Assembly (NCBI RefSeq): GCF_013423955.1 | Contig: NZ_JACCKX010000001.1 | Location: 806,001-870,000, forward strand | Reading direction: 5' to 3' | Source: Ottowia beijingensis | GTDB lineage: Bacteria > Pseudomonadota > Gammaproteobacteria > Burkholderiales > Burkholderiaceae_C | DNA: 64,000 nucleotides | Shown: piece after piece, positions 6,805 through 61,269 of the stretch | How positions within the stretch are numbered: the stretch's first letter is position 1 | How the letters are laid out: the number at the start of each line of letters is the position of its first letter | Notes under the pieces: model-generated | Database searches by the model: none | The model's input: only the letters and a program-made list of their open reading frames with translations | Told to the model about the DNA's origin: nothing | Made by a program: the position numbers and the translations under genes

Positions 6805-7731
6805 ATGTTGAAAGGCTTGGCCATTACCCCGCCCGTGATCGGGCGGATTTCGATTGGGCGCGTGGTGGAGAGAAACGGCAAGCGCCTGCCGGAGAAGGAC
6901 GATGAGTTCACGCTGACCAGCCAGGTGCAGGGCCTGGAAGGCTGGGTGCGGCATCCGCTGGATGCGGCCTTGCGCAAGGACGCCACCGCGAAGCTGCGCA
7001 GTATTCCGGTGCGGCTGGTGTTCGGAGCGCCGGAGTTGAATCTGCGAGCCAGTTTCACCCTGTTCGATCGCAGCAGCGGGCGGCCCTGGTGTGTCGGAGA
7101 CGGGGAGCGCTGCAAGCGGGTGACGGAGCAGGGGATCGAGAGCTTGCCGTGTCCGACGCCGGTGGCCTGTCCCCTCGGGCAGGACGGGCGCTGCAAGCCG
7201 TATGGGCGGCTGCATGTGCGGGTCATCACGCCCGAGGCGGAAACGGGGGCTGGAGAAGACGATGGGCTGGGGAGCTTTGTGTTCCGCACCACGGGTTTCA
7301 ACAGCATCCGCACGCTGGCGGCGCGGCTGGCTTACTTCAAGGCGGTGTCGGGGGATGCTGGCGTCCTTGCCCTTGATGCTGAGGCTCAGGGGCAAGTCGA
7401 CGACGCTGTCGCACCGCACGCCGATCTACTACGTGGATCTGACGACGCCACCGGGCACCAGTCTGGAGCAGGCGATCGCGCAGGCAGCGGAAGTGGAGGA
7501 GCGGCGCCAGCAGCTGGGCTTCGATCAGTGGGCGCTGGATGAGGCGGCGCGCGAGGGCTATGCGGCCGGAGCGTTCGAGGAGTCAGAGGAAGAGGGGTGG
7601 CTGTGGTGGAGGAGTTCTATCCGGACGAGTCCTCGCAGGACCTGCCGGCACCTCAGGCGAGCCAGGGCATCAAGGCCAAGCTGGAGCGCCGGGTGCAGCA
7701 GGTGCAGCGGTCGGGCGATGGCGCCTCATGA
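6805..7731 (+). CDS. Mobile-element protein, recombination-directionality-factor-like (two frame breaks)
   Basis: 308 residues after repair at the G-runs 7350-7354 (one extra) and 7594-7597 (one missing). The N-terminus (LKGLAITPPVIGRISIG, DEFTLTSQVQGLEGW) resembles the Gp3/RDF-like group found in phages and integrative elements. A cysteine cluster follows (WCVGDGERCKRV, CPTPVACPLGQDGRCKPYG) that probably binds zinc. The tail reads PIYYVDLTTPPGTSLEQAIA, a helical EERRQQLGFDQWALDEAAR and a basic end IKAKLERRVQQVQ. Homologues in conjugative elements carry the uninformative name hydrolase or metal-binding protein. Coming right after a YqaJ nuclease it could be the annealing or DNA-binding partner. 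Gene confidence is high; function is inferred. Confidence 0.75.
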
Positions 7732-8386
7732 AGCTGGTCGTCGGCGGGTCATCAAGACCCGTCGGCGGCGCCGCAGCAGGTGCCTGATGTAGCGCAGCCG
7801 TCTGCGCCACCAACCGAGCTGTTCGCGACGACAGGCCTGGGGGCTGGCGTTTGGATGATCCTGATCGGGCAGCCCGGTGGATTTCGAGCAGGTCGGAGAT
7901 GGTCTGCACGCGCTGCAGAGTTTCCTGCTCCGGAGAGTACGTCAGGAAGTCGCGAAGACAGGCGAGCAGTTTCATGATTGCACCGCCTGATCGGAGGTTG
8001 AGGACGGGATTGCGGACGGTGCGAGGGCATCGTCCGCGGTCCTGGCCTTTGTTTTTGGGAGGCACGGGTGCGTCTGCAGCGGGAGCCGGTCTGGGGCAGT
8101 TGCGGATGCAGTGAACGTACGACAGCGGCTGCGTGAATTTGTTCGCGTAGTGGGCAACGAAGTGATTGCGATTAAAGCCGCCTGCGACGACCTGGATCTG
8201 ATGGATGGGTCGGTTGGCAGCGTGGCGAGGGTGCAGCCTGAGCAGGTCTTGCAGGTCGGTCTGGTCGGCGGCGCTGATGGCCTGGCCGGGTTCGTAGCGG
8301 CGCAGCATGGCGCTGTAGTGCAGGCGTGCCTGGTTCTGGCTGGCGAACTCTCGATCTTCGAGTTTGACAGGAATGGCCGTTGGCAT
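7670..8386 (-). CDS. DUF3223-like protein with a C-terminal extension
   Basis: 238 residues from the ATG at 8386, preceded by AAAGGAG. Residues 1-100 resemble DUF3223: FASQNQARLHYSAMLRRYEPG, DLQDLLRLHPRHAANRPIHQ, VVAGGFNRNHFVAHY and a closing LSYVHCIRNC. DUF3223 occurs in DNA- and RNA-related proteins, but its role is not established. The downstream part from Met at 7975 (MKLLACLRDFLTYSPEQE) could be a separate small gene joined by a lost stop or base, because DUF3223 proteins are often short. The 3' end overlaps the convergent gene at 6805-7731 by 62 bp. Confidence 0.55.
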   Translation of the reverse strand: MPTAIPVKLEDREFASQNQARLHYSAMLRRYEPGQAISAADQTDLQDLLRLHPRHAANRPIHQIQVVAGGFNRNHFVAHYANKFTQPLSYVHCIRNCPRPAPAADAPVPPKNKGQDRGRCPRTVRNPVLNLRSGGAIMKLLACLRDFLTYSPEQETLQRVQTISDLLEIHRAARSGSSKRQPPGLSSRTARLVAQTAALHQAPAAAPPTGLDDPPTTSFMRRHRPTAAPAAPGAPAWP

Positions 8387-12382: not shown

Positions 12383-13906
12383 ATGAGCAAACTACGACAC
12401 ACACTGCAACTGCTGCACCGCGGGGCCTTGAGCACCCGTCAAATCGGTGCCGCCCTCGGCATCTCCAAATCCACTGTCAGCGAGATAGCCAGCTACGCGC
12501 GCGTGGCCGGCGTGGACTGGGCACTGGCCCAGAGCCTGAACGACGACGAACTCCAGGCCCGGCTCTACAAGCCACCCGTGGCGCGCGAGTCCCGGCACCT
12601 TGAACCCGACCACGCCCACATCCACCGCGAACTGCGCCGACCTGGCGTGACGCTGCAGTTGCTTTGGGAGGAATACCAGCAACAGCACAGCGGGCAGGCG
12701 TACAAATACAGCGCCTTCTGCGAGAAGTACAAGGCCTGGGCCCGGCGCCTGCAGCGCTCCATGCGCCAGACCCACACGGGCGGTGACAAGCTCTTTGTGG
12801 ACTACGCCGGCCAGACCGTTCCCGTGGTGGATGCCGACACTGGCGAGATACGCCAGGCCCAGGTCTTCGTGGCCGTGCTGGGCGCATCGAACTACACCTA
12901 CGCCTGCGCCACCGCCAGCCAGAAGGCCACCGACTGGGTGGCCAGCATCATTAGCGCGCTGGAGTTCATCGGCGGCGTGCCCCGCCTGCTGGTGCCTGAC
13001 CAGCCGCGCGCCCTCATGGCCCGACCCGACCGTTACGAGCCCACCGCGCACCGCCTGCTCGAAGAGCTCTGTGCGCACTACAGCCTGGCCGTGATGCCCG
13101 CGCGCCCGGCCAAGCCACGCGACAAACCCAAGGTGGAGGTCGCTGTGCAGGTGGTCGAGCGCTGGATTCTGGCCAGGCTGCGCCACCAGACCTTCTTCAG
13201 CCTGGCCGAGCTCAACCGGGCGATTGCCGCCTTGCTGGTGGACTTGAACCAGCGCGCGTTCAAGAAGCTGCCGGGCAACCGCACCAGCGCCTTCGCCGAA
13301 CTCGACCGGCCAGCCCTGCGCCCCCTGCCGCCGGTGCGCATGCCCATCGCGCGCTTCAAACCCGCCCGCGTCAACATCGATTACCACGTTGAGCTCGATG
13401 GCCACTACTACTCGGTGCCCCACGCCCTGGTGGGTGAGCCGGTGGAGTTGCGCATCACGGCCGGCACGCTCGAAGTCCTGCACGGCAGCAAACGCGTGGC
13501 CGCCCACGCCCTCAATCCCCGACGGGGTGCACACACCACCACGCCCGAGCACATGCCGGCCTCGCACCGGGCGCACCTGCAGTGGACGCCGGCCAAGCTC
13601 ATCGCCTGGGGTGAGCGCGTGGGCGCGGCCACCGCCGCCGTGGTGCGCTGGCAGATGGAGCACCGCCAGCATCCCGAGCAGGGTTACCGCTCCTGTCTGG
13701 GCCTCATGCGCCTGGGCCGTGAGTACGGGGCTGACCGGCTGGAGGCCGCCTGTGCGCGGGCGCAGTCGATTCGCTCACCGTCCTACAAGAGCATCGCCTC
13801 CATCCTGGGCTGCGGCCTGGACCAGCGGCCGCTGGATGCGCCGATGGCCGCACAGGCGAGCCTGCCGCTGCACGAGAACGTGCGCGGGCCGGGCTACTAC
13901 CACTGA
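12383..13906 (+). CDS. istA: IS21-family transposase IstA
   Basis: 507 residues from the ATG at 12383 (12362 is a possible upstream start). An N-terminal helix-turn-helix (LSTRQIGAALGISKSTVSEI) binds the IS ends. The RNase H-type DDE core has Asp in LFVDYAGQTVPV, Asp in RLLVPDQPRALM and Glu in KPKVEVAVQVVERW. The C-terminal beta domain HVELDGHYYSVPHALVGEPV follows. IstA performs strand cleavage and transfer with IstB as ATP-dependent helper. Length is normal, with no frame breaks. Confidence 0.95.
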   Translation: MSKLRHTLQLLHRGALSTRQIGAALGISKSTVSEIASYARVAGVDWALAQSLNDDELQARLYKPPVARESRHLEPDHAHIHRELRRPGVTLQLLWEEYQQQHSGQAYKYSAFCEKYKAWARRLQRSMRQTHTGGDKLFVDYAGQTVPVVDADTGEIRQAQVFVAVLGASNYTYACATASQKATDWVASIISALEFIGGVPRLLVPDQPRALMARPDRYEPTAHRLLEELCAHYSLAVMPARPAKPRDKPKVEVAVQVVERWILARLRHQTFFSLAELNRAIAALLVDLNQRAFKKLPGNRTSAFAELDRPALRPLPPVRMPIARFKPARVNIDYHVELDGHYYSVPHALVGEPVELRITAGTLEVLHGSKRVAAHALNPRRGAHTTTPEHMPASHRAHLQWTPAKLIAWGERVGAATAAVVRWQMEHRQHPEQGYRSCLGLMRLGREYGADRLEAACARAQSIRSPSYKSIASILGCGLDQRPLDAPMAAQASLPLHENVRGPGYYH

Positions 13907-58400: not shown

Positions 58401-58726
58401 GGGCGGAGGGCGTGAACAAGGCGTCTGCAAAGTGGCGATGAACGCCGCTTGCAACGCGGGTGTGACTTAGTTGCAGGGTAGGCGCCGAGGCCCTGTGCGG
58501 CTTGCGGCGGGCTTCTGCGCATTAGTGCGCACATTGCGCTGAACGAGTCGCCGATGCGAGTGAAGTCAAAAATATACTTCTTTCCAGCAGTCGCCCAGGT
58601 GCCTCGCGAGTATCCGCCAGAACGTCGGATGAGGCATCACCCACAGGCAACGCACCGCCCGCAGCCATGGCTGCAGCGCGCCGCAGACTGACCCTTCAGA
58701 ACCCAGAACAAAGCGATCACAAACCG
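58401..58726. other. Intergenic region upstream of dnaE and of the GTPase operon
   Basis: Divergent promoter region of 326 bp with no gene. An AT-rich island GTCAAAAATATACTTC near 58564 contains TATACT, a possible -10 element for the rightward operon. TGCGCATTAGTGCGCA at about 58517 is a small repeat of the palindrome TGCGCA. Confidence 0.45.
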
Positions 58727-59440
58727 ATGTCGACCTTGAGGCTTGGCGCCTACAAACTACCTGCCGCCGAAGTGGTGCTGGTGCAGACGTTGTTCCGCCT
58801 GTACGCGCACGGCGACGCGTTCCGCTGGACCTTCGTCACCGCACCGCCCTACGACGCGCTGCTGGCCGACGGCACCACCGACGAGGGCATGAGCCCGGCC
58901 GTGGATGCCATGGCCAAGGCCGTGCTGCGCCTCACACGCATGAACTCGGGCCAGGCACCCAACACGCTGGAGCGCCCGATCCGCGCCGACCGGCTGCAGG
59001 ACTGGCTCAAGTCCACCGAGCACGACCTGCTGCAGACGCGCCCGGCCACGCTGATCGAGGAAGCGACGCAGCCCGATGCCGTCGAGGCCGAGGCGACGAC
59101 CCCGGCGGCGCCGATCAACCCGGTGCGCTTCAAGCTGCGGCGCTGGCCGCCGGCGGCGCTGCTGCGCTCCGACCCGAACCACATCCGCATGGCCACGCTG
59201 CTGTCGCGCCGCGCGCTCAACGCCGCCGAGCTGGCCACCATCAGCCAGCAGCCGGTGCAGGAGTGCCAGGCCTTCCTGACGACCCTGCAGACCACCGGCC
59301 TGGTGGACGTGCAGAAGGAGCCCGCGCCGGCCCCCGCACCCGCCGCCGCCGGCGCGCCCGCGCCCGCCGCGCCGCCCAAGCCGGCCCCCACGTTTGCCCG
59401 CGGCCTGATCTCCGGTATCCGCCGCCGCCTCGGCCTCTGA
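58727..59440 (+). CDS. Unknown protein heading the GTPase-Roadblock operon, possible winged-helix region
   Basis: 237 residues from the ATG at 58727. The N-terminal half (AAEVVLVQTLFRLYAHGDAF, AVDAMAKAVLRLTRMN, RADRLQDWLKSTEHDLL) is alpha/beta. A Pro/Ala linker follows, then a helical segment DPNHIRMATLLSRRALNAAE, LATISQQPVQECQAFLTTLQ, TTGLVDV that looks like a winged helix, an Ala/Pro-rich linker and a basic amphipathic tail ARGLISGIRRRLGL, perhaps membrane-touching. No family is recognised. It is 16 bp upstream of the GTPase, so probably co-translated; it could be a regulator or effector of the GTPase. That is inference from context. Confidence 0.8.
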   Translation: MSTLRLGAYKLPAAEVVLVQTLFRLYAHGDAFRWTFVTAPPYDALLADGTTDEGMSPAVDAMAKAVLRLTRMNSGQAPNTLERPIRADRLQDWLKSTEHDLLQTRPATLIEEATQPDAVEAEATTPAAPINPVRFKLRRWPPAALLRSDPNHIRMATLLSRRALNAAELATISQQPVQECQAFLTTLQTTGLVDVQKEPAPAPAPAAAGAPAPAAPPKPAPTFARGLISGIRRRLGL

Positions 59441-59456
59441 TCCCGCTGCAGCCATC

Positions 59457-59992
59457 ATGAACGAATACAAGATCCTCTTCACCGGCACCATGGGCGCCGG
59501 CAAGACCACCGCCATCGGCGCGGTGAGCGAAACGCCGCCCATCGTGACCGACGTGGTCAACAACGACCAGTCGCACACCAAGGAACGCACCACGGTGGGT
59601 CTGGACTTCGGCCAGTTCACGCTGGACAACGGCGACCGCATCCGCATGTTCGGCACGCCGGGCCAGTCGCGCTTCGACTTCCTCTGGAAGATCCTGTCGA
59701 AGAACGCGCTCGGCATGATCATCCTGACCGACAACTCGCGCCCCGACCCGCTGGCCGACCTGCGCGTGTACCTCGAAGGCTTTGCCGACGACCTGGACAT
59801 CATGCCCTGCGCCATCGGCATCGGCCGCCTGGGAGAACACCCTCGCCGTCGATGGACGACTACATCGAGGAGCTGGCCAGGCACAACCGCGTGCTGCCGG
59901 TGCTCGAGGTCGACGTGCGCAAGCGCGATGACGTCATCCTGTTGATCGATACCCTGCTGGCCCAACTCGAGGCCGGCATGTTTGGAGAGTAA
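59457..59992 (+). CDS. Small Ras-like GTPase (MglA/Srp102-like), one frame break
   Basis: 178 residues after adding one C at 59840-59842. G1/P-loop FTGTMGAGKTTAIGAV; switch I with conserved Thr (KERTTVGLDFGQF); G3 MFGTPGQSRFDFLW (DxxG replaced by GTPGQ, as in several bacterial Ras-like proteins); MIILTDNSRPDPLADLRVYL; the C-terminal helices DYIEELARHNRVLPVLEVDV and DDVILLIDTLLAQLEAGMF. A classical NKxD is not visible: the expected place reads AIGIGRLG, so nucleotide specificity is uncertain. Such GTPases act as polarity or signalling switches with Roadblock partners, which follow here. Confidence 0.9.
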
Positions 59993-59995
59993 GCC

Positions 59996-60388
59996 ATGTC
60001 CGTGAATCTGAAACTGTCGCCGACGGCGAAAGTCATTGCCGCGCGCGAAGCGCAGAACTTCCTCGACGAGGTCAACGGCGTCACCGCCGTGGTGATCGCC
60101 ACCGTCGACGGCTTCGACGTGGCCTCGGCCATGCGCGCGGGCGATGCGGCGCGCGTGGCGGCCATGGCCAGCTCGATCTCGGCCATCAGCTCGGTGGTGT
60201 CGCAGGAGGCCAACCTGGGCCGCAACAAGAGCGTGACCATCGACACCGAATCCGGCTTCGCCATGGTGTACAGCGTGCACCGCGACGATGCCGAACTGGT
60301 GATCAACGTGATCGCCGACGGCAGCGCCATCCTGGGCCAGGTGGCCTACCGCATCGCGCAGTTTGCCCGCACGCTGGCCGAAGCATGA
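59996..60388 (+). CDS. Roadblock/LC7-domain protein (first)
   Basis: 130 residues. Roadblock pattern: an N-terminal helix (EAQNFLDEVNGV), strand VTAVVIATVDGFDVASAM, helix AARVAAMASSISAISSVVSQ, strands KSVTIDTESGFAMVYSVH and ELVINVIADGSAILGQV, and a closing helix YRIAQFARTL. MglB-type Roadblock dimers are GTPase-activating partners of Ras-like GTPases. It starts 3 bp after the GTPase gene and overlaps the next gene by 4 bp. Confidence 0.88.
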   Translation: MSVNLKLSPTAKVIAAREAQNFLDEVNGVTAVVIATVDGFDVASAMRAGDAARVAAMASSISAISSVVSQEANLGRNKSVTIDTESGFAMVYSVHRDDAELVINVIADGSAILGQVAYRIAQFARTLAEA

Positions 60389-60750
60389 CACAGAAAGCAC
60401 TGCGTGATGCGCTGGAGTCCATGGCCGCGATGCCCGGGCTCGAAGGCTGCGCACTGGTCGAGATCGAGGCCGGCATGGTGTGGCACCACGCCGGCCAGAT
60501 CGAAGGCGTGCAGACCTTTGCCGAAGCGGCCAGCGACTACTGGCGCCTGTACAACCGCCTGTCGCACCAGTTCAAGGACCTGGGCGACCTGAAGGCCTCG
60601 GTGATGATGCACGCGCAGGGCCGCATCACGCTGCTGCCCTGCGGCACCGGCATGCTGCTGGTGACGCTGACGCGCCAGAAGTCCGACATCGACTGGGCGC
60701 TGTGGCAGGAAAAGACCAAGGAACTCGCCCGCCTGGTGGACGAGCTGTAA
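60385..60750 (+). CDS. Possible Roadblock-like protein (second)
   Basis: 121 residues. The order of elements, helix ALRDALESMAAMPGLEG, strand CALVEIEAGMVWHHAG, helix FAEAASDYWRLYNRLSHQF, strands ASVMMHAQGRITLLPC and GMLLVTLTRQKS, and a closing helix IDWALWQEKTKELARLV, is that of a Roadblock domain, but the sequence is divergent and the signature strand is weak. The ATGA overlap with the preceding gene means tight coupling. It could be the second half of a heterodimer. Confidence 0.8.
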   Translation: MTQKALRDALESMAAMPGLEGCALVEIEAGMVWHHAGQIEGVQTFAEAASDYWRLYNRLSHQFKDLGDLKASVMMHAQGRITLLPCGTGMLLVTLTRQKSDIDWALWQEKTKELARLVDEL

Positions 60751-60855
60751 ACCCCACGGTTTCCAACCGGGAGACGGCGTTTTTCTGCGTGGCGCCCCTC
60801 CTGCTGAATCACTTCCCACGCAATGGCTGAATCAACCCAACGGAGAAAAGGCGGC

Positions 60856-61215
60856 ATGGCCAATATCAAGCAAACCCTCGACGAACTGATGACCCTGGAC
60901 GGCGCCATGTGCGCGGCCGTGGTCGACTCTGCCAGCGGCATGATGCTGGGCTCGGTCGGCTCCGGCGTCGATCTGGAAGTGGCTGCCGCCGGCAACACCG
61001 AAGTGATCCGCTCCAAGATGAAGACCATGCGTTCGCTGGGTCTGAACGACGTGATCGAGGACATCCTGATCACCCTGGGCAAGCAGTACCACATCCTGCG
61101 CCCGTCGGCGCGCAAGGACGGCGTGTTCATCTACTTCGTGCTGGACAAGCAGCGCGCCAACCTGGCCATGGCCCGCCGCAAGGTGCTGGACGTGGACAAG
61201 GAAATGAACTTCTGA
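60856..61215 (+). CDS. Roadblock/LC7-domain protein (third)
   Basis: 119 residues from the ATG at 60856, preceded by GGAGAAAAGGCGG; the ORF could start at 60823, but the longer N-terminus is polar and not family-like. Roadblock pattern: IKQTLDELMTLDGAMCAAVV, DSASGMMLGSVGSGVDLEVA, NTEVIRSKMKTMRSLGLND, VIEDILITLGKQYHILRP, FIYFVLDKQRANLAMARRKV. It is separated from the previous gene by about 105 bp but on the same strand and ended by a strong terminator, so it is the last gene of the operon. Confidence 0.88.
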   Translation: MANIKQTLDELMTLDGAMCAAVVDSASGMMLGSVGSGVDLEVAAAGNTEVIRSKMKTMRSLGLNDVIEDILITLGKQYHILRPSARKDGVFIYFVLDKQRANLAMARRKVLDVDKEMNF

Positions 61216-61243: not shown

Positions 61244-61269
61244 GAAGCCCCGGCATGCCGGGGCTTTTT
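61244..61269 (+). terminator. Terminator of the GTPase-Roadblock operon
   Basis: AAGCCCCGG-CATG-CCGGGGCTTTTTC, a nine-pair GC stem with a T-run, 30 bp after the last stop. Confidence 0.9.

Follow-up and report, generated by a model that had tools for sequence, protein, structure and literature searches.

The window analysed here, a stretch of 64,000 nucleotides from the genome of Ottowia beijingensis, contains a compact operon for a multi-part leader protein, a small GTPase and three Roadblock-type proteins (Rob1, Rob2 and Rob3; Table 1). As judged by motifs and gene neighbourhood, the operon shows the features of MglA Group 3 for which we tested. We think it somewhat probable that it is a Group 3 system with an enlarged set of three coupled Roadblock-type members, two matched by sequence (one of them weakly) and one by predicted fold, and that it is a signal-gated switch: the leader would take the input, Rob1 would be the GAP, and Rob2 and Rob3 would have non-GAP roles. 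The Group 3 kind is known; what is new in the window is the extra Roadblock-type subunit Rob2, which is lineage-limited. The more surprising lead, a version of the leader with a light sensor, lies outside the window.

Table 1. Positions of the operon features in the window
Feature	Positions	Strand	Remarks
Leader protein, 237 aa	58727..59440	+	predicted pseudo-receiver, winged-helix-like domain and basic C-terminal tail
Leader pseudo-receiver domain, residues 1-108	58727..59050	+	
Leader winged-helix-like domain, residues 133-197	59123..59317	+	LRRWPP motif at its start
Leader conserved basic C-terminal tail	59387..59437	+	ARGLISGIRRRLGL; helix in model
MglA-type (Group 3-like) small GTPase gene	59457..59992	+	frameshift near 59845
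Rob1, 130 aa	59996..60388	+	MglB-type Roadblock protein with Asp-Gly pair, likely GAP
Rob2, 121 aa	60385..60750	+	divergent Roadblock-type protein; start overlaps Rob1 end by 4 bp
Rob3, 119 aa	60856..61215	+	highly conserved; predicted Roadblock fold, without Pfam Robl_LC7 match
Hairpin and T-run	about 61244..61269	+	likely intrinsic terminator

Operon layout and Group 3 features

The five genes lie on one strand with gaps of 16, 3, −4 and 105 bp between successive genes, in agreement with the initial annotation, which had also predicted that one strong terminator closes the operon. The hairpin and T-run downstream of Rob3 bear this out, with an RNA folding energy of −25.6 kcal/mol against a shuffle mean of −11.7 (z −5.4); the hairpin was absent from the list produced by a simple terminator scan. 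Long open reading frames on the opposite strand were put down to the high G+C content, which commonly gives rise to such frames.

The leader profile found 33 loci with record titles, and 26 of them keep the order leader-GTPase-Rob1, so the grouping is not due to chance. Rob3 comes next in 22 of these 26 loci, and Rob2 is found in 13. Conservation of the five-gene order, which had been suggested as a check, thus holds for the three-gene core, but all five genes are present in only 9 of the 33 loci. Four loci lack an adjacent Rob3 (4 of the 13 that bear Rob2; at one of them the contig ends 0.3 kb past Rob2), 13 lack Rob2 (11 of them from Variovorax), and 7 lack the GTPase, one of which retains a 25-residue remnant. 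The deeper relatives L117 and L119 have a permuted order, with an open reading frame in the Rob1 position followed by Rob3, leader and GTPase; the identity of this frame as Rob1 was not secured, as Pfam gave no match for L117, and for L119 a Robl_LC7 match that reached only E = 0.02.

Profile searches showed that the components differ in their spread. The leader profile matched 46 of 299 family genomes, the weaker matches being short and possibly due to chance, and the GTPase profile matched 39 of 229 class genomes. Matches to Rob3 were found in 86/299 family genomes, many of them weak and in frames of about 450 aa, and in 12/229 class genomes. Strong matches to Rob2 (E < 1e-25) occurred at 26 places in 22 of the 299 family genomes, with weak matches only in 18 further genomes; in a class sample of 158 genomes, which included at least one other family member, the host genome alone matched.

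In the Group 3 neighbourhood described by Wuichet and Sogaard-Andersen (2014, PMC4316618), an MglA and its one or two MglBs are accompanied by a conserved protein of unknown function, in which a variable linker joins an N-terminal receiver-like part to a C-terminal winged HTH; this leader architecture was predicted there with Phyre2. According to the same source, G3 is GTPGQ in Groups 2-5, Groups 2 and 3 have a deviating G4, often without the Lys, and a DAR-type G5 with a conserved Arg, and Group 3 is almost confined to beta- and gammaproteobacteria. The operon agrees with this description in the layout of its leader, in GTPGQ, deviating G4 and G5 Arg, in its coupled MglB and in its place within the beta- and gammaproteobacteria. 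It differs in number: Rob1 is a clear coupled MglB, but with three Roadblock-type proteins the operon goes beyond the one or two MglBs of the published systems.

The GTPase motifs were compared in an alignment of 64 rows which, less five repeats, held 59 distinct sequences. G3 is FGTPGQ in the window, and among the relatives GTPGQ is present in 51 of 59 and GxPGQ in all 59. The original assignment of the protein as a Ras-like GTPase stands. The G4 region reads GIGRLGEH in the window, without NKxD, as the initial annotation had noted. We rejected the missing NKxD as an oddity of this GTPase, the trait being group-wide: Gly-Arg occurs in 47/59 relatives, and [NT]KxD in one (that of locus L086). 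G5 is DVR rather than DAR (V152-D153-V154-R155 in the numbering of the relative P0123), and its Arg is present in all 17 in-frame alignment rows.

The operon had been put forward as an undescribed switch with a new partner and extra Roadblock subunits. The first of these claims falls, the kind having been described as MglA Group 3 (PMC4316618). The second survives for Rob2, which goes beyond the Group 3 description, and not for the leader, whose type already appears in that paper.

Two better-known systems resemble the operon in part. The MglA-MglB system of Myxococcus, with RomR, FrzS and MglC, also combines a GTPase, a Roadblock GAP, a receiver or pseudo-receiver partner and a Roadblock paralogue (MglC). 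RomR and FrzS are not known to contain a winged helix. Myxococcus MglA belongs to Group 1, with TVPGQ and a consensus G4, whereas the operon GTPase has GTPGQ; unlike the operon, the Myxococcus MglA gene is not beside its response-regulator partners (PMC4316618). The actinobacterial conservons (CvnA-D) have a Group 2 GTPase with GTPGQ and deviating G4, and a Roadblock protein, CvnB, which includes the best structural match of Rob1 (cvnB5). In place of the leader, however, conservons have the histidine kinase-like CvnA and CvnC, and only one of their four core genes encodes a Roadblock protein. No histidine kinase-like CvnA is encoded among the five operon genes, and the Pfam families listed for 23 leaders did not include DUF742 (CvnC). 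A search of the host genome for DUF742 gave nothing at E ≤ 0.001, and the control genomes likewise had no match above the cut-off.

The leader protein and its input domains

Relatives of the leader begin at the Met encoded at 58727 (at least 90% of the leader alignment) and not at the upstream ATG at 58667; the closest named ones are Ottowia proteins. Comparison of the structure model predicts a receiver fold for the N-terminal part; this comparison covers the receiver part and barely extends to the winged-helix part. The model is of moderate quality (mean pLDDT 72.7, pTM 0.43), and Foldseek searches with it gave weak matches, none at E ≤ 0.001. At positions assigned by secondary structure, the acidic pair is absent from residues 7-10 and Arg replaces the Lys, each in 23 of 23 rows. 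A pseudo-receiver is defined by Bourret et al. (PMC12632262) as a receiver fold that lacks one or more of DD, D, T and K, and the N-terminal domain falls within this definition. Since it has neither the acidic pair nor the Lys, it would take up the input independently of phosphorylation.

The winged-helix-like domain is present in the structure model and is matched by SmtB (E = 2.8e-4) and by TrmB (16/23 members at E ≤ 1, best 4e-5). The C-terminal tail follows a Pro/Ala-rich linker, has a median net charge of +4, and contains five residues (I231, R232, R234, L235 and G236) that are invariant in 23 sequences. The multi-part protein with winged helix and basic tail that the initial annotation had proposed is thus supported by the profile matches, the model and the conservation of the tail. 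We do not regard the tail as proven to be an amphipathic membrane anchor; the shuffle tests are suggestive only. Tested one by one, five tails were no more amphipathic than shuffled sequences, 9-41% of which reached the observed value; for 31 tails together, independent shuffles reached it in 0 of 1000 cases and joint permutations in 9%.

The leader might alternatively be a DNA-binding atypical response regulator under the control of the GTPase and Roadblock proteins, with gene expression as the output. A receiver joined to an HTH is a usual layout of a transcription factor, and the whole-model Foldseek matches, although weak, include FixJ, VpsT and DesR (E 3e-3 to 2e-2). The wHTH is basic overall (median net charge +5), so it may bind DNA; the first strand, which bears the WP motif, is basic (median +5), and so is the first wHTH helix (+3). 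The presumed recognition helix (residues 176-190), however, is not basic, with a median of −1 and a range of −2 to +2 in 23 sequences. The protein also ends in the conserved tail described above, and a basic tail after a Pro/Ala-rich linker would be unusual for a DNA-binding regulator. We therefore consider a transcriptional switch unlikely, although PMC4316618 proposes one for Group 3.

Leaders with a different N-terminal domain occur in another family of the same class. In genome G586, Rob3 and the GTPase flank a gene that encodes a BLUF domain (E = 7e-21) followed by a WP motif, a helical part and a basic tail. This leader has matches in 12 of the 21 genomes of its family. Among 12 matches of at least 200 residues, nine are flanked by Rob3 and GTPase genes; one has Rob3 without the GTPase and adjoins a second leader copy that has both, and two have neither gene alongside. 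Four shorter matches that were examined as loci also had neither. The position of nine of the 12 between Rob3 and the GTPase supports a swap of the input domain. When the pseudo-receiver and BLUF types of leader were aligned with hhalign, their WP/wHTH stretches were opposed, weakly (E = 0.026, probability 1.9%). Nine more distant leaders have a WP-type motif in seven cases and a similar-looking tail in most. The main text of PMC4316618 makes no mention of BLUF or of an amphipathic tail. In the simplest reading, one half of the leader is constant and serves for coupling, and the other half, which takes the input, can be exchanged; blue light is the predicted input signal in some of the distant relatives.

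Roadblock-type proteins and the interrupted GTPase frame

The initial annotation had counted two clear Roadblock proteins and a possible third. Rob1 is clear, with a Robl_LC7 match at E = 4e-9 (36.5 bits against a Pfam cut-off of 23) and a profile match to the cvnB5 structure 3leq at E = 6e-10. Rob2 has only a weak match (E = 4e-4; 20.5 bits, below the same cut-off), but Robl_LC7 is matched by 11 of 18 Rob2 relatives at E ≤ 1, the best at 2.5e-6. Rob3 gave no Robl_LC7 match in the Pfam search, and its place here comes from its model, which is predicted to have a Roadblock fold (alpha-beta-beta-alpha-beta-beta-beta-alpha). In hhalign comparisons, Rob2 and Rob3 were similar over 42 columns (E = 1.3e-4, probability 53%); Rob1 showed no similarity to either, so the role of Rob2 and Rob3 could be unrelated to GAP control.

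MglBs coupled to Groups 2-5 have a conserved Asp-Gly pair, the Asp of which is predicted to lie within 5 Å of MglA (PMC4316618). Among the three operon proteins this pair is found in Rob1 only, where D38-G39 is invariant (17/17). The turn that we equated with it by eye is Ala-, Thr- or Ser-Gly in 18/18 Rob2 sequences and Ser-Gly in 19/19 Rob3 sequences.

These proteins also recall Ragulator (LAMTOR) with the Rag GTPases, in which several Roadblock-fold subunits likewise accompany a Ras-like GTPase. It could accordingly be proposed that the three Rob proteins hetero-oligomerise and are held at the membrane by the leader tail, the GTPase being mainly a subunit of the platform, with no GAP-driven switch. 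The encoding of three Roadblock-type proteins in one operon fits such a scaffold, as do the lack of the Asp-Gly pair in Rob2 and Rob3 and the presence of a Rob3 within 300 bp of Rob2 at 20 of 26 places. The Rob2 profile matched archaeal Roadblock and LAMTOR2 chains at E about 0.04, and the matches of the Rob3 model include Ragulator and MP1-p14 chains beside MglB. Ragulator is eukaryotic, however, and the likeness is confined to the fold and a weak profile match; bacterial and archaeal Roadblock homodimers score equally well against the Rob3 model, and Rob1 is MglB/CvnB-like. A scaffold of this kind seems improbable to us.

A second, orphan Rob3 gene lies near proA in the host genome, with the same neighbours in genomes G164 and G293; the gene names around it, other than proA, are ones that we presume. 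At the DNA level, the operon and orphan copies share 98.0% identity within the host genome and 97.8% within G164, whereas between these genomes the operon copies share 95.2% and the orphan copies 94.7%. This greater likeness within a genome than at the same locus between genomes points to concerted evolution, and the two copies therefore likely share one function. In the Rob3 tree the two G164 copies pair at 0.995; the two host copies are not supported sisters, as the operon copy groups with a sequence on a long branch (support 0.57).

The mgl locus of the betaproteobacterium Snodgrassella, also Group 3, has two mglB genes beside mglA; a further, orphan mglB has its nearest relative in one of these two (PMC11112851). 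This resembles the orphan Rob3 as a gene pattern and does not imply that mglB-2 or mglB-3 is orthologous to Rob3. Unlike the operon, the locus is not reported to have a third coupled Roadblock gene in the available text of PMC11112851. Mutations in the orphan mglB are reported to accompany both flares in soft agar and an improved ability to compete in the gut of a non-native host (PMC11112851). Prior characterisation, which had been named as a ground for giving up the initial proposal, thus exists in part: Group 3 has been described from genomes, and in one carrier changes in an orphan mglB are associated with this phenotype, but no Group 3 biochemistry was found in the open-access literature.

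The description of five genes stood as to the set of genes, but it had missed that the GTPase gene is not a single open frame. The frame that opens at 59457 stops at 59945; the conserved C-terminal part runs in another frame, the first part extending from 59457 to about 59845 and the second from there to 59992. Close relatives are intact in one frame of 178 aa (e.g. P0123). The proA gene of the same assembly is also split over two frames and is whole in two congeners. Because of the split proA, and because the assembly (4.29 Mb) has a listed completeness of 89% for 4 contigs, an assembly error is likelier than gene loss. A programmed frameshift was set aside in view of the single frame in close relatives and the broken proA. 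That the frameshift is real and the operon copy non-functional in this strain, as the interrupted frame of the assembly could suggest, is very hard to credit, with both GTPase parts strongly constrained against the same-genus genome G164 (dN/dS 0.03 before the shift and 0.05 after it), the other four genes open, and proA damaged likewise.

A proposed switch and its output

In the signal-gated switch that we favour, a signal would reach the N-terminal domain of the leader, and the constant half of the leader would hand the input on to the GTPase. Rob1, as GAP, would switch the GTPase off, and Rob2 and Rob3 would be non-GAP subunits with a tuning, regulatory or scaffold role. The part of the leader that is kept when the input domain changes, made up of the WP motif, the helical domain and the basic tail, would face the GTPase or the Roadblock proteins and may also keep the complex at the membrane.

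By analogy with Snodgrassella and Myxococcus MglA, our best guess is that the switch controls type IV pili or some other behaviour at the cell surface. Co-occurrence with pilus genes was discarded as evidence, since pilP is present in 280 of 299 family genomes and its co-occurrence says nothing about a pilus output. Locus L086 encodes a TPR protein for which Pfam gives TPR only, and a FimV-like label for it was set aside. No paper combining Roadblock, FimV, GTPase and 'type IV pil' was found in the open-access literature.

More tentatively, and as something less likely than not, we suggest that Group 3 leaders are plug-in receivers in which a constant coupling unit carries interchangeable sensors (a pseudo-receiver in Ottowia, BLUF elsewhere), that some bacteria thus have a natural light-gated small GTPase, and that the switch of the Comamonadaceae is built on a hetero-oligomeric platform of three Roadblock proteins, a bacterial counterpart of Ragulator.

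Detailed knowledge of Ras-like switches in bacteria seems confined to Myxococcus and a handful of others. The operon offers a compact five-protein set with a testable division of labour, namely which Roadblock protein is the GAP and what the extra ones do. In the BLUF-carrying relatives, light would provide an on/off handle for the effect of the leader on the GTPase.

Split genes and assembly quality

The proA gene of the Ottowia beijingensis genome lies over two frames, whereas it is unbroken in the congeners G164 and G293. Comparison of these sequences therefore suggests that the assembly contains indel errors. In Ottowia sp. oral taxon 894 the match to Rob1 (locus L039:9225-9616) falls in two pieces, in different frames.

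Positions of features in O. beijingensis and related genomes (locus-internal coordinates; C1, contig of O. beijingensis)
Feature	Coordinates	Strand	Remarks
proA	L112:7710-9046		O. beijingensis; split over two frames
Orphan (second) Rob3	L112:6745-7158	-	O. beijingensis C1, near proA
Second GTPase set	L121:12594-16896 = C1:3549593-3553895		O. beijingensis
Third MglA-like GTPase	L136:6388-6948		O. beijingensis
Solo leader and preceding PilY1-domain gene	L027:4469-7954		Variovorax-labelled MAG
Two complete five-gene sets in tandem	L089:4459-11023		Genome G248
~450-aa proteins, Rob3-like domain at C-terminus	L113:12454-13782 and 6843-8231	-
Rob3 - BLUF leader - GTPase sets	L115:6788-8609; L124-L131; L137; L138		One other family

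Additional copies and sets

The operon Rob3 and the orphan Rob3 of O. beijingensis are 97.5% identical at the protein level, and their sequences bear signs of concerted evolution between the two copies. The second GTPase set of this genome combines a GTPase whose G4 motif is GITHSD with a receiver-like leader that, as judged by eye, appears to be split between two frames; a protein of the phosphonate-binding type and a Roadblock-like match complete it. A set resembling it, with a TPR protein, was seen at locus L086. A tblastn search of 13 kb around the third GTPase gave no relative of either the Roadblock proteins or the BLUF leader.

Tandem sets and leaders without a GTPase

In G248, the tandem sets repeat at an interval of about 4.2 kb, and a third leader, Rob2 and Rob3 are grouped elsewhere in the genome. 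The solo leader of the Variovorax-labelled MAG begins directly downstream of the PilY1-domain gene (PF05567, E 7e-41); leaders without a GTPase were also found in four more cases from Variovorax and in two others.

Rob3-like domains in other contexts

Proteins of about 450 residues with a C-terminal Rob3-like domain occur in many genomes of the family, often two per genome. Neither L113 protein matched Pfam, and that at 12454-13782 had no NCBIfam match. In one other family, 9 of the 12 long matches to the BLUF leader (at least 200 residues) sit in Rob3 - BLUF leader - GTPase sets, which are predicted to form a light-gated MglA-type switch.
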